NCBI GenBank assembly: GCA_013426805.1
Contig: JACDZG010000010.1
Coordinates: 1 to 64,000 of the forward strand
Source: Chromatiaceae bacterium
Lineage (GTDB): Bacteria; Pseudomonadota; Gammaproteobacteria; Chromatiales; Chromatiaceae
DNA: 64,000 nucleotides
Direction of reading: 5' to 3'
Below, piece after piece: positions 34,701 to 62,580 of this stretch. The translations under genes were made by a program, and so were the position numbers. How positions within the stretch are numbered: the stretch's first letter is position 1; each line of letters begins with the position of its first letter. Under the pieces are notes generated by a model. The model saw only the letters and a list, made by a program, of their open reading frames with translations, searched no databases and had not been told where the DNA came from.

Positions 34701-35080
34701 AGCAGATAGAGTGCGTTCGGGTAACCCGGGTCCTGCGCCAGCGCCCGATTGAGCCAGGTGCGGGCCTCCTCGGCCTTGTTCTTCTTGAAATAGACGAGCG
34801 CGACGTTGAACGCATCCGCGGCCTGTTGACTGCGCTCGAAGGCGCCCTCGAAGGCCCGCAGGGCGTCGTCCAGGGCGAGCCCGGACTCGTATTTGGCGAT
34901 GCCTTCATTGCGCAGCCGCTGCAGTTCCAACGCGGGGTCGCTTTGGCGCGGGTTCTCCTGAAAGACCGAGGCGGCGGCCTTCTGGGTACTGCCGTCCTCC
35001 CCGGCGGCAAGGACCGGGGTCCCCGCCGCGAGCATCAGACCCGCGGCGAGCCCCAGGGCGAGTGTCGAACGGTACGTCAT
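31775..35080 (-). CDS. Secreted TPR - VCBS propeller - large C-terminal domain protein
   Basis: 1101 aa with a signal peptide (cleavage near VLAAG). TPR solenoid at about 55-230 (NVALVYFKKNKAEEARTWLN, LYLLGVLARADGDLEGAKKH). FG-GAP/VCBS blades at about 365-640 with Ca2+ loops: ADLDADGDLDIAVGG, GDFSNDGRLDLALLRPD, TDYNNDGLLDLVVV, WDRDQDGREDLAYVTADG. An ASPIC-like strand (YVEVLRLDWTNGFVENKL) follows, then a 400-residue beta-rich domain beginning SCPSLFVWNGERFEYLTDTF, as seen in other bacterial FG-GAP proteins. It is probably extracytoplasmic and a binding or scaffold protein. ATGA overlaps on both sides. Confidence 0.82.
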   Translation of the reverse strand: MTYRSTLALGLAAGLMLAAGTPVLAAGEDGSTQKAAASVFQENPRQSDPALELQRLRNEGIAKYESGLALDDALRAFEGAFERSQQAADAFNVALVYFKKNKAEEARTWLNRALAQDPGYPNALYLLGVLARADGDLEGAKKHWERARERAPDDGYLHYQLALVAQSERNEPVFLQSLLNALGIDPENPAALYQMYRYYQHSGNRELADQTMAKFNTLKKQEKFSRREKQKDPSRLAQPVLATATGAAGFPVIEVAPSYRLTTATPGCTAVAADGYVKRAEPVTEGIAIACDDARLMTTQAGKDEGFAEAGKVPAGTRDLRLEWFDEQGPRVLATTDTGLSIARGLVGEPAEYAPVLSAAATAPLVPADLDADGDLDIAVGGGQVPLTNTGKLEFIQEAALYQAGPLPALLSGARAAALADLQRDGLSDLVILRDDALVVAAGSASGFREALRLPAGAGASTLVVGDFSNDGRLDLALLRPDAVRLVWNPDLRAKPADAVIQDLKLGTGGAALLHATDYNNDGLLDLVVVTAAGQASLLRNQGGRRFVELPLGQWPAPAPGARLIAWDRDQDGREDLAYVTADGSFAVARNATEGGGHALALFANGVRAAPSGLLTQIEIRRGADYAYAQSAGVVQRLGTGKSDYVEVLRLDWTNGFVENKLKIDAVPKVYSFKESERISGSCPSLFVWNGERFEYLTDTFISGPAGVPLDRGLYFPVRDRELLVITGDRVQLRDGRLEIRFTEELHESVFVDRARLLVVDHPAGTEVYPHSRLAPVPAPAELFYTVGGLVAPARATGSDGSDLTAILSKVDQVHAEFYQRSSNSGFAEPHWIELELPAEVDPATVDTLLATGWFFYFESTSMIAQAQRSGPNLPWPWLEQYVDGAWQDLAPVGIPTGKGKTAVVPIAGQLKSRQLRIRSGISIYWDRIAFGLTNQVAAAETSAAPLAEATLRFRGFSELVSRDPERFDYYSLRYTALWSPMRGRFTAYGPVDTMVDTADGRYALFGSGDEMSLAFQIDQPPPPPGQTRSYLLEFVGYVKDGDRYTAHPGEVDPMPYLGLLQYPPPADARLREAQTRSPQRTRAPLDYTLTIIGGQEDATR

Positions 35081-38000
35081 GGCTTGGTACCCGCGGGTGC
35101 AGAATTGGTCGAGACCCGCGCGCGGCGCGGTGTCCAGGGGCGCAAGGGCTCGCCCTCGCGCAGGAAATAGCGTTGATCGACGGCGACGTCCGGGAATACC
35201 TGGCGGGTCCCGGAGGTCCAGATCACTTCCAGCTCATCCACCTTTTTGGCCGCGCCGAGCCCCAGTTGGACCAGCGGCGTGCTCTGGGACTGGAAGCCGT
35301 TGCCCGCATTGGTCTCCCGGTAGAAGAGACCGTCCGGGGTATAGGCCGTGACGCGGGTCCCGATGCCGTTGCGGTTGCTCTTGGTGCCCTCCAGTTCGAT
35401 GCCGATGCGGGCGCCCGGGCGGGGATAGATGTTCTCGAACATCACCGCCTTCTGGTTGGCGTTCAGGACGACCATATCCAGGTCGTCGTCGTTGTCGAGA
35501 TCGGCCACGATGAGGCCGCGCCCGTCCCGCTCGTTATCCACGCCATTGGCGGCGCTCACGTCATCGAAGGAGGAGCCGCCGACATTGCGGAACAGGACGT
35601 TTTTCTCGAATCCGGAAAAGCTCATCTCACCCAGGGCCGGCCAGTTCATGGTGTCGGACAGATTGACCTCGCTGTCGAGCATGATCGGCATCAGGATGTC
35701 GATGTAGTCCTTCTTGCCGCCCGAGATGAAGCCGTTGAGCACATAGATGTCCTGCCAGCCGTCATTGTCGTAGTCGATGAACTTGGCGCCCCAGCCCCAG
35801 CGGGTGTCGCAGGTGCCGAGCGCGCTTGAGACATCCGAGAAACTGCCGTCGCCGTTGTTGCGCCAGAGCATGTTGCACTCGTGCAGGTAAGGCTCGGTGA
35901 TGTTGGTGACATAGACATCGAGGAAGCCGTCGTTGTCGAAGTCCCCCAATTCCGCGTTCATCCCCTTCTTGGTGTCCACCCCGATGGCGCTGGTGGACAC
36001 ATCGGTGAAGCGGCCGTTGCCGTTGTTGCGGTAGACCTTGTCCGCCCCGAAGTCATTGGCGATATAGAGGTCGATCCACCCGTCCTTGTCGATGTCGCCG
36101 GTGCCGATGGCGAGCGTCCAGCCGGTATCGCCCAGGCCCGCCTCCTTGGTGCGGTCGACGAAGCGGAAATTGCCCTGGTTCTCCAGCAGGAAGTTGGTAC
36201 CGCCGTTCCTGGCCGCCTCCCAACTGTCATGGAGCAGGTTGGTCCGCTCGCCCACATCGACTAAGTTCACATCGGGAAAATAGGTGCCGAAATAGAGGTC
36301 GAGGTCCCCGTCCTTGTCATAATCGAAGGCCACCGCGGCGACCGGATTGCGGGGGGTCGGCGCACCGTCGAGCGCATGTTCCAGCGGCTCGAACCGCTCG
36401 CCCTTGACGTTGCGCAGGATGAGGCTCTGGCCGAAGCGCACGATGACCAGATCGTCCCAGCCGTCCTGATCCAGGTCGACCAACAGGCTCATCATCGAGA
36501 AGTTGGGCGACTGATTGACGTTGGCGACCCCGTAGCGCTCCGCCACGTTCTCGAACTTCATCCCGCCCTGGTTGAGGAACAGGGCATTGGGCACGTCGCG
36601 CAGGCTGTTGGTGAGATAGATGTCCAAGAGCCCGTCGTTATTGACGTCCCCGACCGACCCGCCGGCACCCAGCGCGGTGAACCAGGGGCCGAGATTGCGC
36701 AGCCGCTCGTCCACCTTGGGACCGAAGTGGCGGAAGTCGAACCCGGCCGCCTCCGTCACATCCCGAAACGCCGCCTTGCCGTTCGCCGCCGGCTTCCCGG
36801 CCTGCTGCGGCGCTGGTGACTGCTCGACACGGATGATCCGATTGAGCTCGGGGGCGACGACGACACTGGTCTCGCCATTGGGCCACTGGATGCGCAGCTC
36901 ATCGACCTTGGGCTGCTTGCCGAGCCCGAAGTGCAGCCTCGTGCTCGAGCCGCCGGCAAAGCCGTTGCCGATATTGACCTCGCGCACCAGGGGTCCCGCG
37001 GGGGTGAGGATCGTGGCCCGCGCCCCTACCGCATCGGTATTCGGCGCGCGGCCGACCAGCTCTACCGTCAGCCAGGCGTTGTCATTGGGCGTCACGTTAT
37101 GGAACAGGTTCGGCGGGGCATCGTTATTGGTCACGAAGAGGTCGGTGCGCCCGTCGTTGTCGAAATCGCCGGTGAAGACACCGCGCGACTCCGAGGGGAG
37201 CGCGAGCGGCCCGTCCTGGACGCGCCGGAAGCTGGTTCCGCTCTCGTTGATGAACAGGACGTTGCGCTCCTTGGCGGCGATGCCGCGGCCCTTCAAGGGG
37301 GGCCACTTGGCGGCGCTGGACGGGTCCTCGCCCTCGTTGTGCCACAGGGCCGGCAGCAGGATGTCGAGATAATCGCCTTTATCCCCTTTGAAGAAGCCGT
37401 TGGCGACATAGAGGTCGAGGTCACCGTCGTTCTCCCGGTCGAAGAACTTGGCGCCCCAGGCCCAGCCCGCGTCGCACACGTTCATCTCCTGGCTGATGTC
37501 GGAGAAGCCCCCGCTGCCGTTGTTGCGCCAGAGCATGTTGCATTCGTGCAGGAACTGCTCGGTCACATTGGTGACATAGATGTCCAGAAAGCCGTCGCCG
37601 TCGATGTCGCCGAATTCGGCGTTCATGCCCTTCTTGGTGTCGATACCGATGGCGTCGCGGGTGACATTCTCGAAGGTTCCGTCGTGCTTGTTGCGGAACA
37701 GGGTGTCGGGTCCGTAGTCGTTGGCGACATAGAGGTCCTGCCAGCCGTCGTTGTCGATGTCGCCGTGCCCGACCGCCATGGTCCAGCCGGTGTCCGCCAA
37801 TCCCGCCCAGGCGGTGGCGTCGCTGAAGCTGCCGTCTCCATTGTTGCGCAGATAGACGTTACTGCCGCCGTTGCGCGAGGTCTCCCAACTGTCGTGCATC
37901 ACCCGGTCGTCGGTCATGGCGAACATGCTGCGGTCGGGGAAATAGGCGCCGAGATAAAGGTCGACATCGCCGTCGCGATCGGCGTCGAAGGCGACGGCCG

Positions 38001-40221
38001 AGAGGGTATTGCGGTAGAGGTCGGCAAGCCCCGCCTTCTTGGTCACGTCCGTGAAGGTGCCGTCGCCGCGGTTGCGCAGCAGCCGGCTCACGCCCATCTG
38101 GAAGACCAGCAGGTCCTTCCAGCCGTCGCCGTCGTAATCGAAGAAAAGACCGCCGGCGGAGGTCGAGTCGGCGGTGTTCAGATCGGCCACGCCGGCCTCC
38201 CGGGCGACATCGACGAAGCGCAGCCCGCCCTCGTTGCGCCACAGGTGATTGGGTGCGCCGGCCTTGGCATTGTTGACGAAGAGGTCGAGATCGCCGTCGC
38301 GGTCATAGTCGCCGACCGCCGCGCCCGCCGCGCCGGCGGCGATCATGTCCATGATGTGCCCGAGCTTGGGGTCGAAGACCGCGGGGACGTGGGGCGCGGC
38401 AATACCGGCTGCCCGCGCGACATCGACGAAATCCCCATCCTGGGCCTTGGCCGGTGCCGCCGCGACCGGGGCCGCGCCGACGGCGAGGGGACGCAGGCCC
38501 TTGCCGCGCTCCAGCACATACCAGGCGCCCGGGGCCGGCGGTTCCACCAGCTCGCTGATACCGTCCGGCCAAGTCACGGTGAGCTTGCTGATCTGGTCGG
38601 CCCGGCCCAGGCCGAAATGGGTCCCGAGCATGCTCTGCGAATTGAATCCATTGCCGACCGCGACCTCGCGGATCATCTTCTCGCCGCCCGCCTCGACGCT
38701 GATCCGGGCGCCCACGGCGTCGGGATTGGCCGTCCCCTGGCGCAGGAGCAGGCCGACCCAGCGCCCGGTCGGTTGCGTGGTGTTGCGGAAGAGCCGCAGG
38801 GGTCCCGCGACGTTGGAGACCGCCAGGTCGACGCGGCCGTCGCGGTCGAAATCGGCGATGGCCACGCCGCGGGCATCGCCCGGGTCATCCAGGCCAGCCT
38901 GGGCGCCGGCCGAGACGAAGCTGCCGAACCGCTGGTGCAGGAAGACGTTACGCTCGTTGCCGGCCATCGAATAGCCGGCCATGTCCGGCCACTTGGTCGC
39001 GTCGCGCAGGTCGATGCCCTCCTGGAAGACGAAGTCCAGGAGCTTGTGCATATAGTCCTCGGGCCCGGCGGAGATGAAGCCGTTGGCCACGTACAGGTCC
39101 TGCAGGCCGTCGTTATCGGCGTCGAAGAACTTGGCCCCCCAGCCCCAGCCGGTGTCGCAGGCATTGGTCTCGGTGGCGACATCCGCGAAACGGAAGTCCC
39201 CGTGATTCTCCCAGAGCATGTTGCACTCGTGGAGATAGGGCTCGGTCATGTTGGTGACATAGATGTCGAGGCGGCCGTCGTTGTTGTAATCGCCGAGCTC
39301 GGCGTTCATGCCCTTCTTGGTATCGGTGCCGATGGCCTTGAGGGTCACATTGGCGAAGGTCCCGTTGCCCTGATTGCGGAAGACGGTGTCGGGGCCGAAG
39401 TCGTTGGCGACATACAGGTCCTGCCAGCCGTCGTTATCAAGGTCGCCGTGGCCGACCGCCATCGTCCAGCCGGTGTCCTCGACCCCCGCCGCCGTTGTGA
39501 CGTCGGTGAAGGTGCCGTCGCCGTTGTTGCGGTAGAAATAGTTGGGGCCGCCGTTCCTGGAGGTCTCCCAACTGTCGAACAGCACCTTGGTGTCCGGCAG
39601 GCGGTTGAAGTCTTTCTCGGGGAAATAGCCGCCGAGATAGAGATCGAGGTCGCCGTCGCGGTCGTAATCGAAGGCGACCGCCGCCATGGCGTTCATCAGC
39701 CGGCTGATCCCGGCCTCCGCGGCCTTGTCTTCAAACGCGCGGCCCTCGCGGTTGCGGTACAGACTCAGTTGCCCGAAACGCATGAGCAAGAGATCGAGCC
39801 AGCCGTCGCCGTCATAGTCGAACCAGATGGCGTGGGCGCTGGTGCCGGTCGCGCCCTGGTTGACAGCGGCCAGACCGAGCTTGGGCGCCACGTCCTCGAA
39901 CCGGAAATTGCCCTGGTTGCGGAAGAGCGCGTTGGGGGCGTCCTGGAGGCTCGTCACCAGATAGATGTCATCGAGACCGTCGCGGTCGAAGTCGCCCACG
40001 GCGACCCCGGCCCCGCCGGCCGTGAGCCAGGGCATGAGATGCTTCGCCTTGGGGTCGAACTCGGCGCGGGCGTGGCTGAACACGACGCCCGCCGGTTGCG
40101 CGACCTCGGTGAACCGCGGACCCGCGTCGGCCGCCGCGGGCGGGACGCTCAGGACCACGGCCAGTACCGCGGCCATGACGGCGGCCGCCAGGCCGGCCGG
40201 ACCGACTGGTGATTTCCTCAT
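35077..40221 (-). CDS. Giant secreted protein with three complete VCBS-propeller/UnbV modules
   Basis: 1714 aa with a signal peptide (cleavage near PPAAADA). It is a threefold tandem of the same about 555-aa unit, near residues 34-590, 595-1145 and 1150-1705. Each opens with F-x-[ED]-V-x-x-x-A-G and a long FG-GAP/VCBS propeller (FDRDGLDDIYLVTS; YDRDGDLDLFVNNA; VNNDGLLDIYLTNS) and shares the motif PYLHECNMLW or FLHECNMLW followed by GWGWGAKF or AWAWGAKF. Each closes with an ASPIC/UnbV domain (TVTWPDGISELV; RIQWPNGETSVV; EVIWTSGTRQVF). The start is ATG 40221, in an ATGA overlap with the gene before; a GTG three codons upstream is less likely. Three fused UnbV units is unusual: enediyne clusters carry one. 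Confidence 0.92.
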   Translation of the reverse strand: MRKSPVGPAGLAAAVMAAVLAVVLSVPPAAADAGPRFTEVAQPAGVVFSHARAEFDPKAKHLMPWLTAGGAGVAVGDFDRDGLDDIYLVTSLQDAPNALFRNQGNFRFEDVAPKLGLAAVNQGATGTSAHAIWFDYDGDGWLDLLLMRFGQLSLYRNREGRAFEDKAAEAGISRLMNAMAAVAFDYDRDGDLDLYLGGYFPEKDFNRLPDTKVLFDSWETSRNGGPNYFYRNNGDGTFTDVTTAAGVEDTGWTMAVGHGDLDNDGWQDLYVANDFGPDTVFRNQGNGTFANVTLKAIGTDTKKGMNAELGDYNNDGRLDIYVTNMTEPYLHECNMLWENHGDFRFADVATETNACDTGWGWGAKFFDADNDGLQDLYVANGFISAGPEDYMHKLLDFVFQEGIDLRDATKWPDMAGYSMAGNERNVFLHQRFGSFVSAGAQAGLDDPGDARGVAIADFDRDGRVDLAVSNVAGPLRLFRNTTQPTGRWVGLLLRQGTANPDAVGARISVEAGGEKMIREVAVGNGFNSQSMLGTHFGLGRADQISKLTVTWPDGISELVEPPAPGAWYVLERGKGLRPLAVGAAPVAAAPAKAQDGDFVDVARAAGIAAPHVPAVFDPKLGHIMDMIAAGAAGAAVGDYDRDGDLDLFVNNAKAGAPNHLWRNEGGLRFVDVAREAGVADLNTADSTSAGGLFFDYDGDGWKDLLVFQMGVSRLLRNRGDGTFTDVTKKAGLADLYRNTLSAVAFDADRDGDVDLYLGAYFPDRSMFAMTDDRVMHDSWETSRNGGSNVYLRNNGDGSFSDATAWAGLADTGWTMAVGHGDIDNDGWQDLYVANDYGPDTLFRNKHDGTFENVTRDAIGIDTKKGMNAEFGDIDGDGFLDIYVTNVTEQFLHECNMLWRNNGSGGFSDISQEMNVCDAGWAWGAKFFDRENDGDLDLYVANGFFKGDKGDYLDILLPALWHNEGEDPSSAAKWPPLKGRGIAAKERNVLFINESGTSFRRVQDGPLALPSESRGVFTGDFDNDGRTDLFVTNNDAPPNLFHNVTPNDNAWLTVELVGRAPNTDAVGARATILTPAGPLVREVNIGNGFAGGSSTRLHFGLGKQPKVDELRIQWPNGETSVVVAPELNRIIRVEQSPAPQQAGKPAANGKAAFRDVTEAAGFDFRHFGPKVDERLRNLGPWFTALGAGGSVGDVNNDGLLDIYLTNSLRDVPNALFLNQGGMKFENVAERYGVANVNQSPNFSMMSLLVDLDQDGWDDLVIVRFGQSLILRNVKGERFEPLEHALDGAPTPRNPVAAVAFDYDKDGDLDLYFGTYFPDVNLVDVGERTNLLHDSWEAARNGGTNFLLENQGNFRFVDRTKEAGLGDTGWTLAIGTGDIDKDGWIDLYIANDFGADKVYRNNGNGRFTDVSTSAIGVDTKKGMNAELGDFDNDGFLDVYVTNITEPYLHECNMLWRNNGDGSFSDVSSALGTCDTRWGWGAKFIDYDNDGWQDIYVLNGFISGGKKDYIDILMPIMLDSEVNLSDTMNWPALGEMSFSGFEKNVLFRNVGGSSFDDVSAANGVDNERDGRGLIVADLDNDDDLDMVVLNANQKAVMFENIYPRPGARIGIELEGTKSNRNGIGTRVTAYTPDGLFYRETNAGNGFQSQSTPLVQLGLGAAKKVDELEVIWTSGTRQVFPDVAVDQRYFLREGEPLRPWTPRRARVSTNSAPAGTKP

Positions 40222-41972
40222 TTCACACACGCTATCTTGATTCCGCTGGCATTGAATTCACGTTGCCGCAGACCGTTGGCCGGCGCCTCGGCGCGCAGCA
40301 TGGTCCAGGCGTCGCACAGCGTCGCCGCATCGGCATTGGGCCCAAGCCCGGTGAGCAGGGCACCCGCCGCCGCGGACAGGGCACTCCCCTGCGCGTGGCG
40401 CCGCGCGGTCTCCAGCCGTTCATTGAAGGTCCCGCGCAGGACGGCGGCGCGCGCGGGGTCGGCGTCTTGCAGATCGAGGGCGAGGCGCAGGTGAGCGAGC
40501 GCATTGGCAAGGGTCAGCAAGGCCGCTTGTGCGGCGGTGATCGGGATGTCGGTGTTGAATAGCCGGGTCTGGGCGAATGGGACCCCCGGCAGGATGACCG
40601 AATCGTAGGGAAAGCGCCCGATCGCATTCATGATCCCATCGAGCCGCCCATCGAAATCGGCATCCCCCAAGGCCCCCGGCACCACCGCGCCGCTGGCGAT
40701 GCTGCCGGCCCGATCCACACCGCCGGGATTACCCGCCTGCGTCTGCAGTGACTGGGGCAGGACGCGCGGGCTGGTCGAGAACGTAAACTCCTGGATCTTG
40801 ATCACGCCGACCGCGAAGCCCGGGTCGATGCCGATATCGTCGCGAATGGTCCAATGCCAGCCGTCATCGAGGAAAAAATGGATGCGCCCCTGATTGGGAC
40901 CATCGGCAACCGCGGCCAGGAAGAGATTGAACTTCCCGTTCATCAGGCTCACGAACCCCACGTCGATGTTCTCATTGGCCGGAGTGCCGTCGGACAGCAG
41001 ACCGTCGATCACCTTCCCCTGCCGCACCTCACCGGGGAGATTCGGCTCCGCCGCACCGTTGTTCGCGGCGGGAATGAAGCCGTTCAGCGCACTGCCGAGG
41101 TAAAGATTGGCCAGGCCGCCCGGGTCCAGCGACTGATCATCGAGCGGACCCGGGCCATACAGGGTCCCGCCGGTCAGGGTGATCCGAAAGGGCGCGGAGC
41201 CATGGCTCCACAGGAAGGCGAGATCGGTATCGATCGGCCGGTCGACATCGCGCCGGGCGCGCACCGCCGCGTGTTGGTCGCCGTCCGGGATCTGCAGGCG
41301 CTCGCGCAGCACCGCGACGTAGGGGTAGGCAAGCAAACCCTGTTCCCAGGTCCGGCGCGCCACGGCCGGCTGATCGAGCAGGGCGTAGGCGTCCCCCAGG
41401 GCCAGGTAACCCAAGGCATACTGATCGTTCTCGTCCTGCTCGAGCGGGGCAAGGCGCGTATGAATGGCGACCGCCTCGGTGAGATAGTCGCGCGCCGGTT
41501 TGGCTTTACGGAACCAGTCGGGCCAGTAGAGATTGTTGAGACCACGGATATACCAGGCGGTCCAATGATCGGGCGTGCGCCCGATGATCCGCGCGACGGT
41601 CTCCTGTGAGCGCGAAGACAGCTTCCCCTGCTGGTACAGGCTTTTGCCCATGAGCTGATCAACATCGGCGAGGCTCAGATTGAGCAATACCGCGTCGCTC
41701 GGCTCGCGGGCCGCCAGGGCGGCGAAGAAGGGCTGCGCGAGCGCCGCCTTACCGTCGGCCTTCAGGCGCAACCGCAGCGCGTTCAGCCCCTGCAAGTCGG
41801 TCAACGCCGCGGCCGGGAACGCCTGCGCGAGGGCCTGCGGCGCGGCGTCCGCGGTCAGCCGGTCGGACCAGGCAGCGAGTTGCGCGGTATCCGCCGACAC
41901 CGCCGCGCCGCCGATCGCGATCACGAGCGCGCCGACGCCCAGCACCGGCCCGATCCGCCGCCGTCGGGTCAT
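40218..41972 (-). CDS. TPR domain fused to the unnamed GPG/SDGT secreted domain, paralog 1
   Basis: 584 aa; the N-terminal hydrophobic segment (GPVLGVGALVIAIGGAAVSA) is a signal peptide or anchor. Residues about 30-255 are TPR-like and related to the DUF1702 lipoprotein (GLNNLYWPDWFRKAKPARD here, MNYLHWPDYFEK there; DTDLAFLW here, NTDISILW there). Residues about 260-490 are the family domain: GGTLYGPGPLDDQ; NNGAAEPNLPGEV; LLSDGTPANENIDVGFV; GIDPGFAVGVI; PQSLQTQAGNPGGVDRAGS; GALGDADFDGRLDG; LPGVPFAQTRLFNTDIPI. A helical tail follows. Second gene of the train: ATG 41972 overlaps the PKS stop as ATGA. It links the family physically to the TPR/DUF1702 system. Confidence 0.78.
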   Translation of the reverse strand: MTRRRRIGPVLGVGALVIAIGGAAVSADTAQLAAWSDRLTADAAPQALAQAFPAAALTDLQGLNALRLRLKADGKAALAQPFFAALAAREPSDAVLLNLSLADVDQLMGKSLYQQGKLSSRSQETVARIIGRTPDHWTAWYIRGLNNLYWPDWFRKAKPARDYLTEAVAIHTRLAPLEQDENDQYALGYLALGDAYALLDQPAVARRTWEQGLLAYPYVAVLRERLQIPDGDQHAAVRARRDVDRPIDTDLAFLWSHGSAPFRITLTGGTLYGPGPLDDQSLDPGGLANLYLGSALNGFIPAANNGAAEPNLPGEVRQGKVIDGLLSDGTPANENIDVGFVSLMNGKFNLFLAAVADGPNQGRIHFFLDDGWHWTIRDDIGIDPGFAVGVIKIQEFTFSTSPRVLPQSLQTQAGNPGGVDRAGSIASGAVVPGALGDADFDGRLDGIMNAIGRFPYDSVILPGVPFAQTRLFNTDIPITAAQAALLTLANALAHLRLALDLQDADPARAAVLRGTFNERLETARRHAQGSALSAAAGALLTGLGPNADAATLCDAWTMLRAEAPANGLRQREFNASGIKIACVK

Positions 41973-44900
41973 GGGATGTCCGCGGCGATCGGCGGGGTTT
42001 CCGTGGCGATACATGAGGTTTCCTTCGCGAGAGTGGACATGAGCCAGGTCGGCATCGGTTGCGGTTGCGCTTCCTCGACGGTGGTCGCGTACATCTGGAA
42101 GCGGGCGCGACCGGCCGCGATCTTGGCGGCGCCGTGGCTTTGGTTCGTCAAGGCCAGATCGAAGGTACAGAAGGTCGCGCCGACCTCGGCGAGCCGGACC
42201 TCGGCCTCCAGCGTATCGCCCGGCATCGCCTCACCTAAGTGATCGAGCTGGAAGGCCGTGGCGAAGAAACCGCCCGGGCAGGCCCCCATGTTCCTCAAGG
42301 CGTTCTTGCAGTTGGCCGCCCCCAGACAGCGCAGCGTCGACGCACAAGGGCAGGTCCCCAGGTGCCGCAGGGCCTTCTGACAGGCCCGCTCGACCAAGGT
42401 GGCGGTATGGGAAAAGTAGATGTTGCCGACGAAATTCGCGTGCGCCTCGTCGGTCTCCAGCCACAAACGGGCGCGGCCCTGCTCGGCTTCGATCCGCGGG
42501 TCGCGCCGCCAGAGGATCGCCATGTCGTCGGGCGGCTCCAGCAGGTGCCCCAAGGGGGGGCTGAAGGGGTCGGTGCCGGACGCCGGGCGTCGCTCATTGA
42601 TGAAGTCGGCGAAGAAGTCCGGGAACGGCTCCGCCCTGACCTGGCCCCCCGGTCCCACGTCGACCCAGGTCAGACGCTGGCTGCCCTGGGCCACGATGCG
42701 TTGCGGCGCCCCTCCGGGGCCGGTCTCGGCCCACTGAAAGCCGAGTTCGAAGGTCGCGGGCTGGCGCTCCAGGACCCGGTCCAGCCACACCCAGGCCCGC
42801 AGCGGCGCGTGGTAGCGCACCGGGCGCAGGATTCGCACCCGGGTGCCGTTGGTCACCATCCCCTTGCCGCCCACGCTGAAAGCGTGGGCCAGCGGGATGC
42901 GGATGTCGGACATCGCCGCTTCGCGCAACTCGCCCATCCAGGCGAAGAACACCGAGGCCGTGGGGCTGCGCAACGGCGGCAGCGCCTCTTTGAATGTCAT
43001 TACGATGTCGCGCGTGTAGTGGGTCACGCGCCGGGTTGCGGCCGCCGGCGTCAGTTGCACCAGCGCAATCGCCGCTGGACCCGCGAGCACCAGCTCGAGC
43101 ACCCCGGCGGCGACCAGACCGCCCGCCAAGCGGAAGCGGGGGCCGCCGTCCTGCATCCCGACGAAGGTCACGCTGTCCGCGGCGGCCCCCGCCTTCAGCA
43201 GGGCCTCGTGGATGGCCCAGACCATGGCACCGGCGCGGTCGCGGTCATTCAGTGCGCCCGTCAGGTCGCGCCACAGACGGTGACGCGGCTCCGGCAGCAG
43301 TTCGCCCCAGGGGCGCACGACTTGACCGATGCGCTGCAGATCGCACCCCACCCGCCCGCTGCCGCACGCGCTCAACAGGCGGGCGGCGTCGTGGGCGATG
43401 GACACCCCCTGGCCCGGCCGGTCGACGAGCGCGGGAGCCCCGTCGGCACGCCAGGTCAGCACCGGGGTCGCAACGGGAACGCTGCCGAGCTGCGCGGCGA
43501 CCTGCACCGCAGCCGCACGGCGGCGTGCCTCCTGGTCGGCGTCAGCGACGGCGCCCAGCGCAATGTTCAGTTCCGCCAAGTCCCGGCGCCCGACCATCCA
43601 GGCCGCCAGGGCCGCCTGATCACCGGCCAGGGGATCAAACAGGGCCGCCGCGTCGGGTCGCGACGCATAACGCTCGACGATGTTCAGGCGATAGCCCTCG
43701 TAGCGGGCAACCGGGGCGCCGTCGGCGGCGTTCCAGGCCCGTACCCGGGTGACATAGCCGGTGGGGATGCGCTCGGTGATCTCGGCTTCGACCCGGGTCG
43801 CCCCGCCCTCCCAAGCGGCCGCGTAGAAGACCGTCTCGGCGATGCCGACCGGCAGGCAGAGATCCCGCGGCACCAGTACCTGCACGGATTGCAGCAGGGC
43901 GTCGAGAAAGTAGGGGTCCGGCACCGGGGTCCCGGGTGCGGAACCCTCGCGACGCAGCGTGAAGCAGCCGCGGCGGTGCACGTCGTCGGCGAGGTCGAGC
44001 CCGAGCACGCGCTCGATGCGCCGAAAGACGGGGCCCTGGAAGAGCAGCCAATCATAAAGATGGGCACCGACCTCGGGCGGCACGACGCGCCACCGGGAAT
44101 CGTCGGGCGCGGCGGGCACCGCGGTGCCCGGGTCGGGCGTACCGAGTTGCACGCGCGCGGCGAAGGCCGGGGCCAGCCGGGCGGTACCCGGGGCACCGAC
44201 ACATCCGCTCCAGTCCGGCGCGGGGCTGCCGCGGACATCGAGCTCGATGGTCGTATCGCCACGCTGGGCGGCAACGATGGGGCGGGTGATCCGCAAGTCC
44301 AGGAACCGCGTGACGACACCCGCACCCGCCAGGAGTCGGGCGCCATTCCCGATCGCGGTCAACGCCTGCACGGTGGGGAACAGCAGCGCCCCACGAAACG
44401 CGTGGTCGGTCAGCCAGCGGTCGCGTTGCGGATTCAGCGCGGGCCGGGATACGAGGATCACACCGGGCTCGTGGACCACGCGGTCATCGACATAGGGCCA
44501 GCCGGATGCCGCGGCGGTGCCGCGCGCCTGGCGCCAGGTCGGCAGACCATGCAGCGGCGCCGCGACGACCAGCGGGATCGGGACGGCCGGCTGACCGCAG
44601 CATTCCAGAAACCAGCGGATACCCGCCGCGGGCGGAATTGCCGCCACCTGCTGCCGCTCCAAGGACGCGAGGACATTGAGCTTGGCTCCCATCCCAACGT
44701 CGGACCAGACGCTGTACGCGGGGCAGGCGACCTGCAGCTGCGGGTGGGCGTGCTTCAGCTCGGCGAGGGTCTCGGCCAAGGCCTCGTTCGCCAGCGCGTA
44801 GCCGCTGTTGCCGGCCATACCCACGGCGCCGATGACCGAGCCCAGGGCCACGGCGAGCTGCAGACGCTCGGGTCCGATGGCCGCCAATAAATTGGTCAGG

Positions 44901-47900
44901 CCGCCGACCTTGACCAGGTACTCGCGCCGCAGCACCGCGGGATCGAGCCCGGTGGCAAGCGTCGGGGTGTTCACACCGGCGCCGTGCACCAGGCCGACGA
45001 TGTCGTGTGTCCCCAATTGGTCGGTGCCCTGTTGCAGGGCCGCGCGCACGGCGGCCGCGTCGGTCACGTCGCATTGCAGATAGACCGCGGTGAGCCCCGC
45101 GGCGGCCATCCGTTGCAGGGTGTCCTCGACCTCCGCACCGGGGGCCTGCGCCGGGGAAGTGCCGAGCAGCAGGCCGCGGGCACCGGTGGCTTGCAGGAGA
45201 GCAAAGGCGCAGGCGGCGGTAATGCCCTTGGCGCCGCCGGAGATCACCACAATGTCGCCGCGCACGAGCGGGATACCGGGCACGGCCGTCGGCTCCCACC
45301 GTTCGAGCCGCAGCTCCTGGACGGCGTTGCATGCGTCCACCCGCAGCAGCCGCACCCCGGGCGTGATTCGGGCCAGCGCCAGCGGCGCGAGCTCAGCCGC
45401 CGGATCGGCCGCAACCGCGAGGATGGGCAACAGCGGCTGTTCCAGTGAAACGCTCTGGGCAAAGCCGAAGACCGGGGCTTGGCCTGGACCGCCGATGAGG
45501 ACGATCGACCGGGTGGCCGCACCGGGCCGGGCCACCAGGTGACGCCCCAGCCGGGCGAAGAACTCGGTTACCCGCTCGGCCGCGGCGCGGTCCCCGGGCA
45601 AGGCGATCAGCCGCGTCGGCTGGTCGCCGGGGACGTCAACCGGGGCTCCGTCATCGAGCCGCGCCGTCACCCCGGCGGCTGCCAACTGGTGCACCAGGCG
45701 CCCGGCCTCAGCGGCCCGTTCAGGCGCATGCAGGATCACCACCGGTCCGCCAGGCACCGGAGCCTGGAGTCGCTCGGTGTCGCGCCAGGCCGGAACATAT
45801 CCGAGCACGGGCAGGTCGGCGGGCAGCGCACCGGACGCGGCCGACCCCGGACCCGCGGCGCTGGGCCCGCCCCCCGCCGACTCGCGCACCGGCTGCTGCG
45901 CGGCGGCGCGGGCAAGCTCGCGGATGGGGGTGGTACCCAGCGCCAGGTCGTCCGGCAGAACGACACCGCGGGCGCGCAGCTCGGCGCCGACCTCGGCGAT
46001 CTTGATCGAATCCAGATTGAGATCGCGGGCGAGGCGCGCATCCGGGGAGATCATCTCGAGGTCGTAGCCGGTCTCGCCGGCCACGAGCTCGCGCATGAGG
46101 TGTTCGATAGCGGCGCCGGCGGGCAGCCCCGCGTCCAGCTCGGGGTTGGGCCGCGGGTCCGGATCTGCCGCGGCGGGCCTGCTTCGCCGCTCGCCCGCCG
46201 CGCCCGGCACGGGGTCGCGAACGCCGTCGGCCCGCGCACAGGGGCTCTCGATGAAAGTGCGGTCGCGCGCGGGGACGAAGGGACGCCAGTACCGGTGCGC
46301 GTAGAAGGCCCCCCAGTCGAGGTGCGCCCCGGCCACGAAGAGCTGGCCGATCGCCGTGCAGAAATGACTGTCGGTGTCCCCAGGACCGGGTTCCAACGCA
46401 CCGATCGGCAAGGTCTGGCCCAAGGTCCGGCGCGCGAGCCCCGTCAACACGGAGCCGGGACCGACCTCGACCAGAATGTCGCAGGCCGCGGCCAGCGCCG
46501 CGACCGTCTCGCGAAAGCGCACCGGGGCGGTGATCTGCCCCGCGACATAGGCGAACGGATCGAACCGCTCCGGCGCGAGCCCACCCTGCACACCCGAGAA
46601 GAAGGGTATCTGGGCCTCGCGTTCCTCGCCGCGGGGCTTGGCGAGGCGTTCCAGAGCCGCCGCCGCGGCGGCCATGTGGCCGGAGTGAAACGCCTTGGAG
46701 ACGTTGAGGGTAGCAGCCCCGATCCCGCGCGCGCGGGCGAGCCCGGCGAGTGCGGCGAGCGCCTGCGGATCGCCGGCGACGACGACCTGGTCGGGTGCAT
46801 TGTCGTTGGCGACGACGGCGTAACCGGCCGCAGCCGCGATCATCGCCTGGGCGGTCGCAATGCCGCAGGTGAGCGCCAGCATACCGCCCGGGGCCACGTC
46901 CGCGGCGGCACACGCCTGCGCGCGCACCTCCACGATATCGATCGCCTCGGTCTCCGACAACAGGTGCGCCGCCACCAGGGCGGTGATCTCCCCCAGACTG
47001 TGTCCGGCGACGGCGCTCGGCGTGAGGCCTACCTGGCGCAGCCATTGAATCCACTGCAGACTCGTCATCACGATGGCGGGTTGGGCGACCCGGGTATCAC
47101 GCAACGCCGTCTCCCAGCGGGCCGTCACCGCAGGGGTCCGTGCCTGCTCGACCGGACGATCGATGAACCCGGACAGCCCCGCCGGACCCAGGGCCGCGAA
47201 CCGCGCGTCCCAGCGGGCACGTCTGGTGGCGGCCCAGCCCGCGCGCTGCGCCAGCACACCGCCCATCCGCAAAAATTGGGATCCCTGGCCGGGGATCAGG
47301 TAGCCGATGCGCAGCCGCGGATTGGCGCGGCCGCACAACGTCCCCGGGGGCGCCAGCGGGAGCGCGTCCCCCGCGCCCTGCAGAATCAGCGTCAGGGAGC
47401 GCAGCCGGCCGCGCAGTTCCTCGACCGTCTCCGCCACCACGGCCGCGCGCACCGTGCCGGCCTGGTCGTCCAGCGCGCAGCCGACGGCCAGATCGACCAG
47501 TTCACCCTCGGCCATACCCGCGGACAGCCGCAGCAATTCCTCCAGGCGGGCGACCAAACCGGGGACGTCCGCGGCACTGGCGACGAACAACTCGGCGCTC
47601 TGCGCCGAGGCGAGGAGCAGGGCGGCGTCGCGCGTCTCCAGCCGACGTTTGGGGATGTCCTCTCCGGTGACCGCGACGTGGCAGTTGATGCCGCCGAAAC
47701 CCGCCCCGGAAACGCCCGCCCGCAAGCCGGACCGCGGCGGCAGGCAGGCGCCGCGGGAGATGGGATAGAGGCGCGCCTGCGGGGCCGCGAACGCGTCGGC
47801 CGGGGTCTTGAACCCGGCCAGCGGCGGCAGCACGCGCTGGTTGACGGCGAGAATCGCCTTGATGAGGCCCGCCGCCCCGGCGGCCGCCTTGGTATGCCCG

Positions 47901-49048
47901 AGCAGGGTCTTGACCGAGGTCACGCCGGTGCGGCGCAGGTCGCCGGGGTCCGCGCCGCCGGTGACGTCCAGGAAGCCGAGCAATTCCTGCCGATCGCCGA
48001 CCGGAGTCCCGGTGCCGTGGCCCTCGATGAAGTCGAGGGTCTCCGCGCCGAACCCGCTGCGCTCATAACAACGCCGCATGGCCAGTGCCTGGCCGCTCGC
48101 CTTGGGCGCCGTGATGCCGCCGGATCCGTCCGACGAGATGCCCCAGCCCGCGAGTCGTGCCCAGGGCGCGAGGCCGTGCCGCTCCACCTCCGGACCGCGC
48201 ATGAGGACCAGCATGCCGCAGCCTTCGCCGGGAATGAAACCGGCGGCATCCTTGTCGTACACACGCATCGGCCCGGTCGCGAGGGCGCCGGTGCGGGCAA
48301 AACCCACCAACTCCAGGGGGTCGAGACTGATGTCTACCCCGCCGGTCACCACCATGTCGAGGCGCCCGCTCGTCAGGGCTTCGCAGGCCGAGCTCACCGC
48401 CAGCAGTGACGAGGCACAGGCGCCGTCGACCACGTACCCGCCCCCGTTGAGGTCGAGCACGTTGCAGATCCGGCCGGCAATGACATTCGCGAGTGCACCC
48501 GCCAGCGTGTCCTCGTTGGGCACCGGAAAGGGGTCTTTGAAACCCTGCTCGGCCGCATCGATGAGTGCGGCCACCTGCGCGTCCGCCAGCCCTGCCCGCG
48601 CGGCGGCGTCCAGGATCACCCGGCGGACATAGGGCCAGCGCAGGCGCAGCATATTGGCGCGCGACACCTCACCGGTCAGTGAGTTTCCCAGGATCACGCC
48701 GATGCGTTCGCGCCCGACCGCGTCGAGATCGATGCCGCCGTCGGTGATCGCCGCCATGGCGGTGGTCAGCGCCAGCCAATGCACCGGATCGGTCGCCTCG
48801 TAGGCCGCCTTGGGCACCCGATGGGCCTTCCAATCGAATGCAAATCCATCCACGAGCGCGGCGCGGGCGGCATAGGTGAAATCACGTTCCGCGCGGTTTT
48901 CGGAGACGTACTCCTGCACCGACAGGCGGCGCTCGGGAAACTCCCGGAAACCACAGCGCCGGGTCAGCAGGGTTTCCCAGAACTCCCGCAGATTACCGGC
49001 TCCCGCGTAGACGGATGCCATCCCAACAACATAGATACCTGCGCCCAT
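41969..49048 (-). CDS. PksE-like iterative polyketide synthase fused to hot-dog thioesterase-like domains
   Basis: 2359 aa. Domains (residue numbers from the ATG at 49048): ketosynthase 5-460 with Cys211 (VDGACASS), His344 (EGHGTGTPVGD), His385 (GHTKAAAGAAG); acyltransferase 580-890, Ser684 (AGHSLGE); carrier protein 980-1050, Ser1014 (RDLNLDSIKI); ketoreductase 1260-1480 (ISGGAKGITAACA, Tyr1417 in NSGYALANEA); dehydratase 1535-1790, His1549 (LTDHAFRG) and Asp1716 (DALLQS); phosphopantetheinyl-transferase-like 1850-2000 (VSIAH, GCDLQR, WAIHEALLKAG). This order, and KS blocks such as NSLTGEVSRANMLRLRWPYV and GRICNVLDLNGGGYVVDG, match enediyne PksE enzymes rather than PfaA. Residues 2045-2340 add hot-dog sequence (HANFVGNIYF) like the separate TEBC/E10 thioesterase, with a Cys-rich insert at 2222-2258. 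Predicted product: a polyene-type chain from malonyl units. The longer TTG start is rejected. Confidence 0.9.
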   Translation of the reverse strand: MGAGIYVVGMASVYAGAGNLREFWETLLTRRCGFREFPERRLSVQEYVSENRAERDFTYAARAALVDGFAFDWKAHRVPKAAYEATDPVHWLALTTAMAAITDGGIDLDAVGRERIGVILGNSLTGEVSRANMLRLRWPYVRRVILDAAARAGLADAQVAALIDAAEQGFKDPFPVPNEDTLAGALANVIAGRICNVLDLNGGGYVVDGACASSLLAVSSACEALTSGRLDMVVTGGVDISLDPLELVGFARTGALATGPMRVYDKDAAGFIPGEGCGMLVLMRGPEVERHGLAPWARLAGWGISSDGSGGITAPKASGQALAMRRCYERSGFGAETLDFIEGHGTGTPVGDRQELLGFLDVTGGADPGDLRRTGVTSVKTLLGHTKAAAGAAGLIKAILAVNQRVLPPLAGFKTPADAFAAPQARLYPISRGACLPPRSGLRAGVSGAGFGGINCHVAVTGEDIPKRRLETRDAALLLASAQSAELFVASAADVPGLVARLEELLRLSAGMAEGELVDLAVGCALDDQAGTVRAAVVAETVEELRGRLRSLTLILQGAGDALPLAPPGTLCGRANPRLRIGYLIPGQGSQFLRMGGVLAQRAGWAATRRARWDARFAALGPAGLSGFIDRPVEQARTPAVTARWETALRDTRVAQPAIVMTSLQWIQWLRQVGLTPSAVAGHSLGEITALVAAHLLSETEAIDIVEVRAQACAAADVAPGGMLALTCGIATAQAMIAAAAGYAVVANDNAPDQVVVAGDPQALAALAGLARARGIGAATLNVSKAFHSGHMAAAAAALERLAKPRGEEREAQIPFFSGVQGGLAPERFDPFAYVAGQITAPVRFRETVAALAAACDILVEVGPGSVLTGLARRTLGQTLPIGALEPGPGDTDSHFCTAIGQLFVAGAHLDWGAFYAHRYWRPFVPARDRTFIESPCARADGVRDPVPGAAGERRSRPAAADPDPRPNPELDAGLPAGAAIEHLMRELVAGETGYDLEMISPDARLARDLNLDSIKIAEVGAELRARGVVLPDDLALGTTPIRELARAAAQQPVRESAGGGPSAAGPGSAASGALPADLPVLGYVPAWRDTERLQAPVPGGPVVILHAPERAAEAGRLVHQLAAAGVTARLDDGAPVDVPGDQPTRLIALPGDRAAAERVTEFFARLGRHLVARPGAATRSIVLIGGPGQAPVFGFAQSVSLEQPLLPILAVAADPAAELAPLALARITPGVRLLRVDACNAVQELRLERWEPTAVPGIPLVRGDIVVISGGAKGITAACAFALLQATGARGLLLGTSPAQAPGAEVEDTLQRMAAAGLTAVYLQCDVTDAAAVRAALQQGTDQLGTHDIVGLVHGAGVNTPTLATGLDPAVLRREYLVKVGGLTNLLAAIGPERLQLAVALGSVIGAVGMAGNSGYALANEALAETLAELKHAHPQLQVACPAYSVWSDVGMGAKLNVLASLERQQVAAIPPAAGIRWFLECCGQPAVPIPLVVAAPLHGLPTWRQARGTAAASGWPYVDDRVVHEPGVILVSRPALNPQRDRWLTDHAFRGALLFPTVQALTAIGNGARLLAGAGVVTRFLDLRITRPIVAAQRGDTTIELDVRGSPAPDWSGCVGAPGTARLAPAFAARVQLGTPDPGTAVPAAPDDSRWRVVPPEVGAHLYDWLLFQGPVFRRIERVLGLDLADDVHRRGCFTLRREGSAPGTPVPDPYFLDALLQSVQVLVPRDLCLPVGIAETVFYAAAWEGGATRVEAEITERIPTGYVTRVRAWNAADGAPVARYEGYRLNIVERYASRPDAAALFDPLAGDQAALAAWMVGRRDLAELNIALGAVADADQEARRRAAAVQVAAQLGSVPVATPVLTWRADGAPALVDRPGQGVSIAHDAARLLSACGSGRVGCDLQRIGQVVRPWGELLPEPRHRLWRDLTGALNDRDRAGAMVWAIHEALLKAGAAADSVTFVGMQDGGPRFRLAGGLVAAGVLELVLAGPAAIALVQLTPAAATRRVTHYTRDIVMTFKEALPPLRSPTASVFFAWMGELREAAMSDIRIPLAHAFSVGGKGMVTNGTRVRILRPVRYHAPLRAWVWLDRVLERQPATFELGFQWAETGPGGAPQRIVAQGSQRLTWVDVGPGGQVRAEPFPDFFADFINERRPASGTDPFSPPLGHLLEPPDDMAILWRRDPRIEAEQGRARLWLETDEAHANFVGNIYFSHTATLVERACQKALRHLGTCPCASTLRCLGAANCKNALRNMGACPGGFFATAFQLDHLGEAMPGDTLEAEVRLAEVGATFCTFDLALTNQSHGAAKIAAGRARFQMYATTVEEAQPQPMPTWLMSTLAKETSCIATETPPIAADIP

Positions 49049-49353
49049 GTGGTTCTTCAACTGCTACTGCTCACTTGCCCGGTCTCGCGCCGCGTTGGGC
49101 CGGACCGGCGCGCAATCACCGTCACCCGGGGTGCGGAGTATTTGTGGTCGTGGCATGGGGCGGCACGTCTGAACCCGGCAGAACGTCCCATCGCGGACCC
49201 GACACGCCGCGCCGCGCCGCGCCTGTGGCAGCCGTCCAATTGGCGCAACAGGTATCGGGGGTCGGGGCCGCAACGACAAATAAGGCCGAACCGCCGGTTC
49301 CACCCCGTCCGGCGGGTTGGCGAAGACGTGCGTCGCTACGGCATCGGGGACCT
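49049..49353. other. Intergenic region between the PEP-CTERM-like gene and the PKS gene
   Basis: 305 bases with no coding frame. On the minus strand, just after the PEP-CTERM-like gene, an imperfect stem (AACCGCCGG 49289-49297 with CCGGCGGGTT 49309-49318) is followed within a few bases by TTATTTGT. It could be a weak or partial terminator, allowing some read-through into the PKS gene. I see no GG-N10-GC promoter in this stretch. A purine-rich GAAGAA precedes the PKS ATG. Confidence 0.35.
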
Positions 49354-50052
49354 TCAGGCGGCGACCGCCGCGCGCCGACGGCGCAGCGCCGCCATGACCA
49401 GCAGACCCGGAATCGCCAGCGCGGCCGTGGCCGGTGCCGGGGCCGCGGACGGCGGCTGGCCGTTCACGTCTCCCAACCCCGGCACTTCAATGGGGTCGCC
49501 GCCGTCGAGGCTGTACTGTCCATCGACACTGAAGGGGGTGATGTAGGTGATCTGGAAATTGCCGATGCTCCCCGTCATGCTGACCCGCCCGGTCGGGATA
49601 TTGGCCAGTGAGACCTCCACCAATTGGCCATCGACCATGCCCGAGAAGTCCGCCGCCTGCAGGACCATATCGTAAGTCCCCCCGGCGTACGGGTCGGTAC
49701 GGCCCACGAACTGGACGACAAAGTTGTCGGCACCGGTCAGGTTCGCGGTGCGAACGACGGGACCGCCGACAGTGTCGGACAGCAGAGCCTGGAACGAGGC
49801 GCTGTAGCTGAAGACATCGCCACTCACGGTGGGACCGGTGAAACCGCTGATCAGGAAACTTTGAGTGTAACCGAGGCCGGGCAGCCCCACCCAGGTGCCG
49901 GGCGGAGTGGCCTGCAGATCGACGATCTGGTTTAGGAACGGGTCCGGAACGGCGCTGAGGAAGGCGTAGGCACCGGTCGAGACGGTACCGAGTGTGAATG
50001 CGAGCGCGGCGAGCGCGGCGCGGGCGTGGGTGGACAGGTGTCGGGTCAGCAT
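49354..50052 (-). CDS. Secreted protein with PEP-CTERM-like sorting tail
   Basis: 232 aa: a signal peptide (cleavage near AYA), a beta-rich domain of about 160 residues with no recognised family, a Pro/Ala linker, then a C-terminal tail of the PEP-CTERM kind: short motif, hydrophobic helix (ALAIPGLLVMAAL), Arg cluster (RRRR), end. The signature tripeptide is PAP, not PEP (SAAPAPATAAL). Exosortase would cleave and anchor or release such a protein in the exopolysaccharide matrix. GGAGAG is 5 bases before the ATG. A sigma-54 promoter match lies about 290 bases upstream and the prs genes follow upstream; both support the assignment. No exosortase gene is in the window. Confidence 0.7.
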   Translation of the reverse strand: MLTRHLSTHARAALAALAFTLGTVSTGAYAFLSAVPDPFLNQIVDLQATPPGTWVGLPGLGYTQSFLISGFTGPTVSGDVFSYSASFQALLSDTVGGPVVRTANLTGADNFVVQFVGRTDPYAGGTYDMVLQAADFSGMVDGQLVEVSLANIPTGRVSMTGSIGNFQITYITPFSVDGQYSLDGGDPIEVPGLGDVNGQPPSAAPAPATAALAIPGLLVMAALRRRRAAVAA

Positions 50053-50481: not shown

Positions 50482-50647
50482 AATGTAGGCACTTTACCGA
50501 CACGGAGGTATACGCGGTCCGGTCTATCGCTCGGTCGACCCCCGGCACGTTGCCGGCCTCCGGTCCGCGCCCCTCCGGACCCGGCGCGGCCCGGGGCTTG
50601 GCGGCCCCGGCCGCCGCCAGGATCTTGCCTGGCGCCGCGTCGGCAGT

Positions 50648-53422: not shown

Positions 53423-53450
53423 GCCAGTCACCTCTCTCAAGCGTACGGGT

Positions 53451-56936: not shown

Positions 56937-56941
56937 GGCGA

Positions 56942-58315: not shown

Positions 58316-58747
58316 GTTCTTACCCTCTTTGTATACACGCCTGCGCCCACCGAGGTCACGCGGCCAGTTGTGCGGCGATCTGCACGCGCACACTCGACGA
58401 CGACGCGTTTTCCGGCCCCGGCATCCTATCACAGACGACGCGGCAACCAAGTCAAGCGTTCGCCGGGGCGGCAAAGCGCCGCGGTCGCAATGGGGTCGGC
58501 GCACTGTTAAGATATCAGACGATGTGCCAAGGCGGCGGAGGATATCTGCGGCCCCGATAGCGACCCCGGTGGCCATTCCAAACCCCGGCGACGCGATCGG
58601 ATTCCCAGGCCTGCGCCCACCCGAGTCGGCCAGCCACCCGCCGGGGCGTGATCCAGGCCGACGACCTCATGATCGAGGCCGTACTCCATGACATGAAGCC
58701 ACGCGTCTCCAGGGAGCAGGCGGACGGGCGGCGGTGAGTCTGAATCG
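58316..58747. other. Divergent intergenic region between the sugar transferase and epimerase genes
   Basis: 432 bases that must hold the promoters of both the prs operon and the epimerase gene. No GG-N10-GC element fits on either strand at a sensible distance. The stretch near 58505-58530 (TTAAGATATCAG) is the most AT-rich and a possible sigma-70 -10 area. Nothing else supportable is seen. Confidence 0.3.
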
Positions 58748-59755: not shown

Positions 59756-59763
59756 GCCGCACC

Positions 59764-61333: not shown

Positions 61334-61334
61334 C

Positions 61335-62516: not shown

Positions 62517-62519
62517 GCC

Positions 62520-62567: not shown

Positions 62568-62580
62568 CGGACGTAAACGC

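Follow-up and report, generated by a model that had tools for sequence, protein, structure and literature searches.

A PksE-type synthase with a fused double hot-dog release domain heads a conserved, export-centred operon in a Chromatiaceae bacterium

The first 64,000 nucleotides of contig JACDZG010000010.1 from a Chromatiaceae bacterium, presumably one of the purple sulfur bacteria (NCBI GenBank assembly GCA_013426805.1; this whole analysed stretch is referred to as the window) carry, on the minus strand at 41969..49060, a gene for a PksE-type iterative synthase with a fused double hot-dog release domain. Read from a TTG start at 49060 the protein has 2363 residues, or 2359 from an alternative ATG start at 49048, and the plus strand across 41969..49060 is interrupted by stops. 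The original prediction, made from the letters of the DNA alone, had placed the gene at 41969..49048 without stating its strand; this is a real open reading frame (ORF), but it belongs to the minus strand, and 49048 is the position of its ATG. The synthase heads an operon of 14 minus-strand genes (16680-49060), whose 13 downstream members lay beyond the view of the earlier reader and in which 10 of the 13 junctions overlap and the largest gap is at most 85 bases. Parts of this operon are conserved in gene order in two other genomes, and judging from its predicted proteins it appears to be new in placing a PksE-type synthase within an export-centred gene set together with a putative new family of exported proteins. 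None of the open-access papers listed in capped literature searches was seen to describe this operon.

Pfam profiles place a ketosynthase (KS), an acyltransferase (AT), a single acyl carrier protein (ACP) stretch, a ketoreductase (KR), a PS-DH dehydratase (DH) and finally 4HBT/4HBT_2 matches along the synthase. The KS occupies 47636..49045 (residues 6-475, Cys215), the AT 46271..47323 (residues 580-930, Ser688; its PDB matches include the AT of DynE8), the ACP 45893..46108 (residues 985-1056, Ser1018), the KR 44561..45277 (residues 1262-1500, Tyr1421) and the DH 43451..44473 (residues 1530-1870, His1553 and Asp1720), all on the minus strand. A phosphopantetheinyl transferase (PPTase)-like domain follows at 43031..43408 (minus strand, residues about 1885-2010, with GCDLQ at 1905 and WAIHEALLK at 1948); this region had no Pfam match and was assigned through its alignment to the C-terminal PPTase region of SgcE and relatives. 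A single chain thus holds the KS-AT-ACP-KR-DH-PPTase architecture with its active-site residues, as the original prediction had read it, and the six residues it named are all present once four is added for counting from the TTG. This domain order is shared with the enediyne synthases SgcE, CalE8 and DynE8, with 36% overall identity to SgcE; the ACP motif reads LNLDS in the window synthase and LHMSS in SgcE.

The KS was placed in a tree of 62 rows that comprised the window, 34 loci of our choosing from at least 80, seven named plasmid loci (including C-1027 SgcE and Gloeothece), a Sinorhizobium plasmid locus, 13 PfaA or PfaA-like rows (five of them above the TIGR02813 cut-off, and two being the same sequence) and six modular KSs from the genome of the host. 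PksE synthases formed a superclade of 43 rows that includes the window (support 100/100), and the PfaA and PfaA-like sequences a separate clade of 12 rows (100/99), the nearest outgroup among the classes put in, while one PfaA-like row (L018), on a branch of 2.83, fell outside both. Within PksE a basal row (L088) was followed by two large branches: clade A with 19 rows (98/91), in which seven rows accompany the 12 enediyne synthases of actinomycetes (100/99), and clade B with 23 rows (96/95). The window KS lies inside clade B and not among the actinomycete enediyne synthases, and groups there at 100/100 with the KSs of a Candidatus (Ca.) Thiosymbion ectosymbiont of Robbea hypermnestra (L039) and of a Methylococcaceae metagenome-assembled genome (MAG; L040). 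The other 20 clade-B rows belong to cyanobacteria, Bacillota, Myxococcota, Thermodesulfobacteriota, Nitrospirota and further groups. In a tblastn comparison, for which the domain borders used cut hot-dog 1 short, the window KS shares 75-77% identity with the KSs of its group of three, 42-53% with other PksE loci and 31-37% with the 13 PfaA-type rows. The PksE assignment made originally therefore stands in the tree, and of the two KS groupings named as fatal to it, with polyunsaturated fatty acid (PUFA) or with glycolipid (HglE) synthases, the one covered by this tree, with PUFA synthases, was not seen. That the gene sits in a Gram-negative genome is equally real but is not unique and not new in itself, since published work has already associated enediyne-type KSs with Cyanobacteria, Proteobacteria, Firmicutes and further phyla (PMC10308959) and has shown enediyne-type clusters in cyanobacteria (PMC4247773).

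The C-terminal extension had been predicted to be a hot-dog domain. Both the sequence profile and a structure model find a hot-dog fold in the last ~320 residues, but as two domains rather than one; the lack of such a fold, also named as fatal to the original prediction, was therefore not observed. When PDB sequences were searched with the C-terminal profile, SgcE10, CalE7 and DynE7 ranked highest (1.6e-24 to 3e-20), so that an enediyne-type release domain is indeed carried in the same protein as the synthase. The 50 rows of structure matches obtained from a VIA-align second look at Foldseek hits held no CalE7, DynE7 or SgcE10 entry; these proteins are single hot-dogs, and the modelled chain lacked its first strand, as the source alignment begins inside hot-dog 1 for the window and its two closest relatives. 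Hot-dog 1 (42641..43018, minus strand, residues about 2015-2140) keeps the W-x-G-x-x-R-E motif and is without an equivalent of Asn19, in a conserved-residue count over 11 rows; the hot-dog 1 of the window itself had been truncated ahead of the Asn19 column. Hot-dog 2 (42026..42478, minus strand, residues about 2195-2345) keeps N-x-x-x-N-x-Y as NFVGNIY, within the HANFVGNIYF stretch noted originally (HANFVGN at residue 2207), and is without equivalents of Trp32, Tyr29 and Arg37. The catalytic residues of CalE7 (Asn19, Tyr29 and Arg37) are thus not found in one domain: the Asn lies in hot-dog 2 and the Arg in hot-dog 1, and Tyr29 is replaced in hot-dog 2. In this the hot-dog domains of the window synthase differ from SgcE10, CalE7 and DynE7, being tandem and fused, with the conserved residues divided between two copies. 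Hot-dog 2 of the window also holds a cysteine-rich insert (about 42270-42355, residues about 2236-2263) in which an ALR-x-(L/M)-G-x-CP block occurs repeatedly; the insert is absent from L039 and L040 and is perhaps a recent small duplication.

Fusion of synthase and thioesterase, which had been regarded as a departure from a two-protein norm, is not peculiar to the window. Of the other 20 clade-B rows, 10 have an enediyne-thioesterase profile match within the frame of the synthase itself, including Gloeothece, Microcystis, Laceyella and Ca. Electrothrix, so the two-protein rule is not general and fused release domains recur in clade B. Like the window, the non-actinomycete PksE-thioesterases of these four and of Nitrospirota combine a clade-B KS with a double hot-dog tail, with 19-27% identity to the tail of the window synthase, whereas in several cyanobacteria the clade-B PksE and its release domain are split into two genes. 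At the clade-B loci listed, other than that of the Methylococcaceae MAG, none of the other proteins of the window operon was found.

The genes downstream of the synthase, all on the minus strand, encode mainly proteins with export signals or lipoprotein boxes, both of which were read by eye. Overlapping the synthase gene by 46 bases is that of a 598-residue exported protein (40218..42014) with a TPR-like half and a domain that we call the G domain (copy 1). It is followed by a 1717-residue exported protein made of three CRTAC1 units (35077..40230; 16 FG-GAP stretches and three ASPIC/UnbV matches; hereafter the CRTAC1 triple), a 1101-residue exported TPR and FG-GAP protein (31775..35080) and a 685-residue lipoprotein-like TPR protein (29721..31778) with a DUF1702 domain distantly related to enediyne E3/UnbL. 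Two G-domain proteins with signal peptides, of 365 (28627..29724; copy 2) and 360 residues (27548..28630; copy 3), precede a 945-residue membrane cytochrome (24690..27527) with four hydrophobic segments, five CXXCH haem sites and a TPR tail, a 589-residue lipoprotein of the generic CRTAC1 group (22924..24693) and two further G-domain proteins of 292 (22049..22927; copy 4) and 279 residues (21213..22052; copy 5). The operon closes with a 265-residue LolA-like protein (PF17131; 20330..21127), a 419-residue exported protein that ends in Phe, has no family match and may be an outer-membrane barrel (19074..20333), and a 782-residue MMPL/HAE3-type RND exporter with nine hydrophobic segments (16680..19028).

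Five operon proteins share the G domain, which has a G-P-G near its start, an SDG and NEN region, a loop of the calcium-binding type GD-x-(x)-DG-x-x-DG and a (D/E)-(I/M)-P end. Its assignment to a known family was rejected, as the five copies gave no Pfam match at E values up to 1 apart from FG-GAP at 0.54 in one of them. Three copies searched against NCBIfam returned only MelC1 at 0.23, near the end of the 598-residue protein, and no match was found in PDB. On this evidence the G domain would represent a new exported protein family.

Upstream of the synthase lie a PEP-CTERM/XrtA-type TPR gene (PrsT), a sigma-54-type regulator and a histidine kinase. Control of the operon by sigma-54 through these adjoining PrsK/PrsR-type genes was considered and rejected, since the -24/-12 pattern, with two mismatches allowed, was not above chance (4 found versus 11.2 expected in the window, and 4 versus 4.9 in L040). 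A PEP-CTERM-like exported protein is encoded directly upstream of PksE in two bacterial families, at 49354..50052 on the minus strand of the window, where its membership of the operon is unsure, and at 8898-9617 of L040 (42% identity). Scans of the window for tRNAs and Rfam families found none, megablast of positions 50500-64000 returned two short matches only, and searches of the plasmid collection with the TPR-DUF1702 and 598-residue proteins gave no match.

Two other genomes carry recognisable copies of the operon. In the Methylococcaceae MAG the genes follow the window order until the contig ends, before the exporter part: below the PEP-CTERM-like gene come PksE (67% identity), the 598-residue protein (66%), the CRTAC1 triple (81%) and the TPR/FG-GAP protein (60% over its first 120 residues). 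In the Ca. Thiosymbion genome (G808) the PksE (68%) lies on a contig of 7215 bases that is identical to L039, a second contig holds the 598-residue protein (66%) and the triple (79%), and further contigs carry the TPR/FG-GAP (68%), TPR-DUF1702 (74%) and 365-residue G proteins (74%) and the 279-residue G (75%), LolA-like (67%) and 419-residue proteins (61%). Gene order inside each of these contigs is that of the window, with insertions of a DUF2461 gene and of a gene with DUF4351/Transposase_31 matches. The whole G808 genome has three G copies versus five in the window, and the 360-residue copy does not follow the 365-residue one; this copy, the 292-residue copy, the cytochrome, the second CRTAC1 protein and the MMPL exporter were sought on three G808 contigs. 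A second genome of the Thiosymbion-type genus (G809, contig C338; L162-L163) retains an incomplete middle part of the operon, with the TPR/FG-GAP, DUF1702, cytochrome and CRTAC1 genes and two G genes, and lacks a PksE of the window kind, which points to decay or an assembly fault.

The operon is otherwise rare. Among 398 genomes of the phylum, a profile of the G domain and DUF1702 were each found in the host genome only, as was the CRTAC1 triple at 1e-100 among 369 genomes of the class. Within the family the G profile matched 4 of 210 genomes, including the host and one weak case, and in the genus it had no match in the seven genomes besides the host; around the weak match in G732 (4.5e-4) no operon was found within 19 kb. 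Such a scattered distribution fits with horizontal transfer.

On balance we favour a pathway in which the PksE-thioesterase synthase makes a polyene for the cell envelope, the MMPL and LolA-like proteins export it, and the remaining proteins anchor or finish it at the surface, the product not being an enediyne. The PPTase domain would activate the ACP of its own chain, and the single KS-AT-ACP-KR-DH set would iteratively extend and partly reduce the chain to a conjugated polyene, as its relatives SgcE and CalE8 suggest. For CalE8 and CalE7, a published study describes a synthase that forms a polyene and a thioesterase that releases it by hydrolysis (PMC3107222). In the window the tandem hot-dog pair may act as one pseudo-dimer that frees the chain in cis, with a composite site to which hot-dog 1 would contribute the W-x-G-x-x-R-E half and hot-dog 2 the Asn/Tyr half. 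Either alone or attached to a carrier, the chain would then move outwards through the MMPL exporter, the LolA-like carrier and possibly the barrel protein, the direction being presumed to be export, and its anchoring or completion would take place on the outer face of the inner membrane or at the outer membrane. Here the exported proteins of the CRTAC1, TPR-DUF1702, G-domain and five-haem types could serve as scaffold and redox partners that receive, anchor or oxidise it, yielding an envelope polyene that might be a pigment, an antioxidant or a surface lipid.

The closest parallel for the transport step is the aryl polyene system. For the apeA-R cluster of Escherichia coli, the proposed route to the outer membrane is formed by the RND protein ApeM with the Lol homologues ApeL and ApeN (PMC8253772), and the window operon likewise pairs an RND exporter with a LolA-like carrier inside a biosynthetic operon, in our case for a presumed polyene chain. 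The systems differ in that aryl polyene clusters use discrete type II enzymes and an aryl starter, whereas the window has one iterative type I protein and adds the CRTAC1, G and cytochrome proteins. Among the 14 operon proteins no Pfam match pointed to a LolB-like third component or to lipid-anchoring transferases, the 419-residue protein having no family match.

Several observations weigh against this pathway. We know of no product for clade B and, because of this, the word polyene rests on relatives of the synthase; the stem of the window clade is long (0.86). A profile of six actinomycete thioesterases found no match at 1e-3 in the window or L039, and in L040 only one at 7e-4; together with the loss of the Trp32, Tyr29 and Arg37 equivalents from hot-dog 2 of the window clade, this means that release may be altered or lost. 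Besides the AT of the synthase, no acyltransferase, glycosyltransferase or AMP-ligase of the type that attaches aryl polyenes to lipid was recognised among the 14 operon proteins. The Ca. Thiosymbion contig with the LolA-like and 419-residue genes continues to LpxB and has no MMPL match, so that this genome does not show the exporter to be a member of the conserved unit. Finally, a five-haem cytochrome together with CRTAC1, DUF1702 and G proteins exceeds what a polyene exporter needs. In a bolder version of the pathway, the polyene made and released in the cytoplasm would be handed over by the MMPL and LolA-like proteins to a periplasmic assembly of the CRTAC1 triple, the TPR-DUF1702 protein and the five G proteins, which would oxidise or cross-link it while the five-haem cytochrome takes up electrons without oxygen. 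We regard this version as rather doubtful. If it were true, periplasmic finishing would be a counterpart of the unsolved E3/E4/E5 steps of enediyne biosynthesis and would yield conjugated surface material.

Two other kinds of product were weighed, and both seem unlikely. The synthase could make a PUFA-like secondary lipid, that is, a polyunsaturated or hydroxy fatty-acid-like chain instead of a conjugated polyene; among NCBIfam models TIGR02813 (PfaA) scores highest on its KS-AT region, and export by MMPL and LolA-like proteins would suit a lipid. The score of 509 bits is however half the PfaA cut-off of 1010, the PfaA and PksE clades each exclude the other at the support given above, and the single ACP stretch, PPTase region and enediyne-type thioesterase do not suit a PfaA. 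Alternatively, the MMPL protein could release a diffusible antibiotic, signal or pigment, with the exported CRTAC1 and G proteins serving in resistance, binding or at the surface. Decorated small molecules are conceivable in clade B, as three tryptophan-halogenase-type genes lie near each of the PksE genes of Gloeothece (L030 26719-32394), where an ABC exporter is also found, and Anabaena (L089 7178-22992). Against such a metabolite, none of the 14 operon proteins could be recognised as a P450, flavin oxidase, halogenase or regulator, and the exported G and CRTAC1 proteins, being conserved in three genera, resemble machinery.

The composition of the operon nevertheless recalls enediyne biosynthesis. 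According to PMC5181780 the defining enediyne cassette is E3/E4/E5/E/E10, which in our view of the C-1027 locus corresponds to DUF1702, CRTAC1, RnfD-type, PksE and thioesterase proteins. The window has the E10 thioesterase as a fused domain, and it has PksE, DUF1702 and CRTAC1 proteins in one operon. Its DUF1702 domain is a true distant relative of E3 that has been fused to TPR, as judged by profile comparison (hhalign 96.2%, E 2.4e-9; below 1% for the UnbU, UnbV and thioesterase controls), and this domain is rare. Repeats of the triple score 123-151 bits with a five-row E4 profile, while the host genome has two further matches, which score 37 and 29 bits. A second CRTAC1 tree, from which three long or short rows (L133_a, L131_a and L060_E4) were dropped, joined the triple, L077 and E4 in its best topology (63/89), and a group of the triple and E4 alone was not rejected (AU p 0.15).

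Other evidence points away from such a cassette. The presence of UnbV cannot be taken to imply it, since the match of 1.7e-125 sums three repeats that individually reach 6e-44 to 1e-35. In both CRTAC1 trees the E4 rows (12-13) cluster at 100/100 to the exclusion of the window triple, and Acidobacteria CRTAC1 proteins score 531 and 528 bits against the triple while Streptomyces E4 rows score 382-420. In the host genome (7.6 Mb in 349 contigs), the UnbU (E5) profile matched only at 8.2e-8 over 92 of 370 positions, perhaps an RnfD, and at 0.0115, with no match in the window. In the DNA examined around each of the other 20 clade-B loci, UnbU or UnbV was found at none and DUF1702 at two; in clade A, UnbU is seen for five of the seven rows that are not actinomycete. 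The window KS lies outside the branch that holds the cassettes, and the locus differs from those of SgcE, CalE8 and DynE8 in having neither an E4 orthologue nor an E5 beside its synthase. It thus appears very doubtful that a new type of enediyne-like pathway operates here, in which the CRTAC1 triple and the DUF1702 protein would turn the chain into an (en)diyne beyond the inner membrane and the five-haem cytochrome would replace UnbU. Because no enediyne-type UnbU was found in the genome, the triple falls outside E4 and the other clade-B loci showed neither UnbU nor UnbV in the DNA examined, we do not class the operon as an enediyne cluster, and an enediyne product is unlikely. The original prediction was right to caution against assuming an enediyne product, and this caution is strengthened by the negative search for UnbU and by UnbV-type proteins that stand apart from the E4 group.

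Further PksE loci seen in the course of this work vary widely in their surroundings. On psymA of Sinorhizobium meliloti T073 (NZ_CP021805.1, 247085-257204; L165 18766-28885), contiguous genes for DUF1702, UnbV, UnbU, PksE (1911 residues) and thioesterase form a complete cassette of the enediyne type on a rhizobial symbiosis plasmid; its KS is the first branch of clade A, a long one, and at megablast level the cassette occurs in a single record of the plasmid collection. The clade-B PksE frame of a Proteobacteria MAG (L104 3446-13078) has 3210 residues and, by eye, a C-terminus like an FAD-dependent phytoene desaturase or carotenoid isomerase. In Anabaena two DUF1702 genes lie shortly 3' of the clade-B PksE, and in the cable bacterium Ca. 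Electrothrix gigas (L082 6977-14782) the clade-B PksE with its double hot-dog tail has two multihaem-type cytochrome genes at most 6 kb upstream. The host genome itself holds nine further KS matches in ORFs of at least 900 residues (contigs C318, C56, C45, C21 and C152), five of them on C318.

To our knowledge, how a PksE polyene is converted to an enediyne, and what the E3/E4/E5-type proteins do in this process, is still an open question. The window represents a naturally reduced and rearranged system, with a built-in release domain and with DUF1702 and CRTAC1 proteins bearing export signals, but in which no UnbU was found. Its operon makes it possible to study the function of DUF1702 and CRTAC1 proteins separately from UnbU. 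The candidate G domain family gains a setting in which it can be studied, and the operon as a whole indicates that purple sulfur bacteria and an animal ectosymbiont have a surface or secreted product that is still unexplored.

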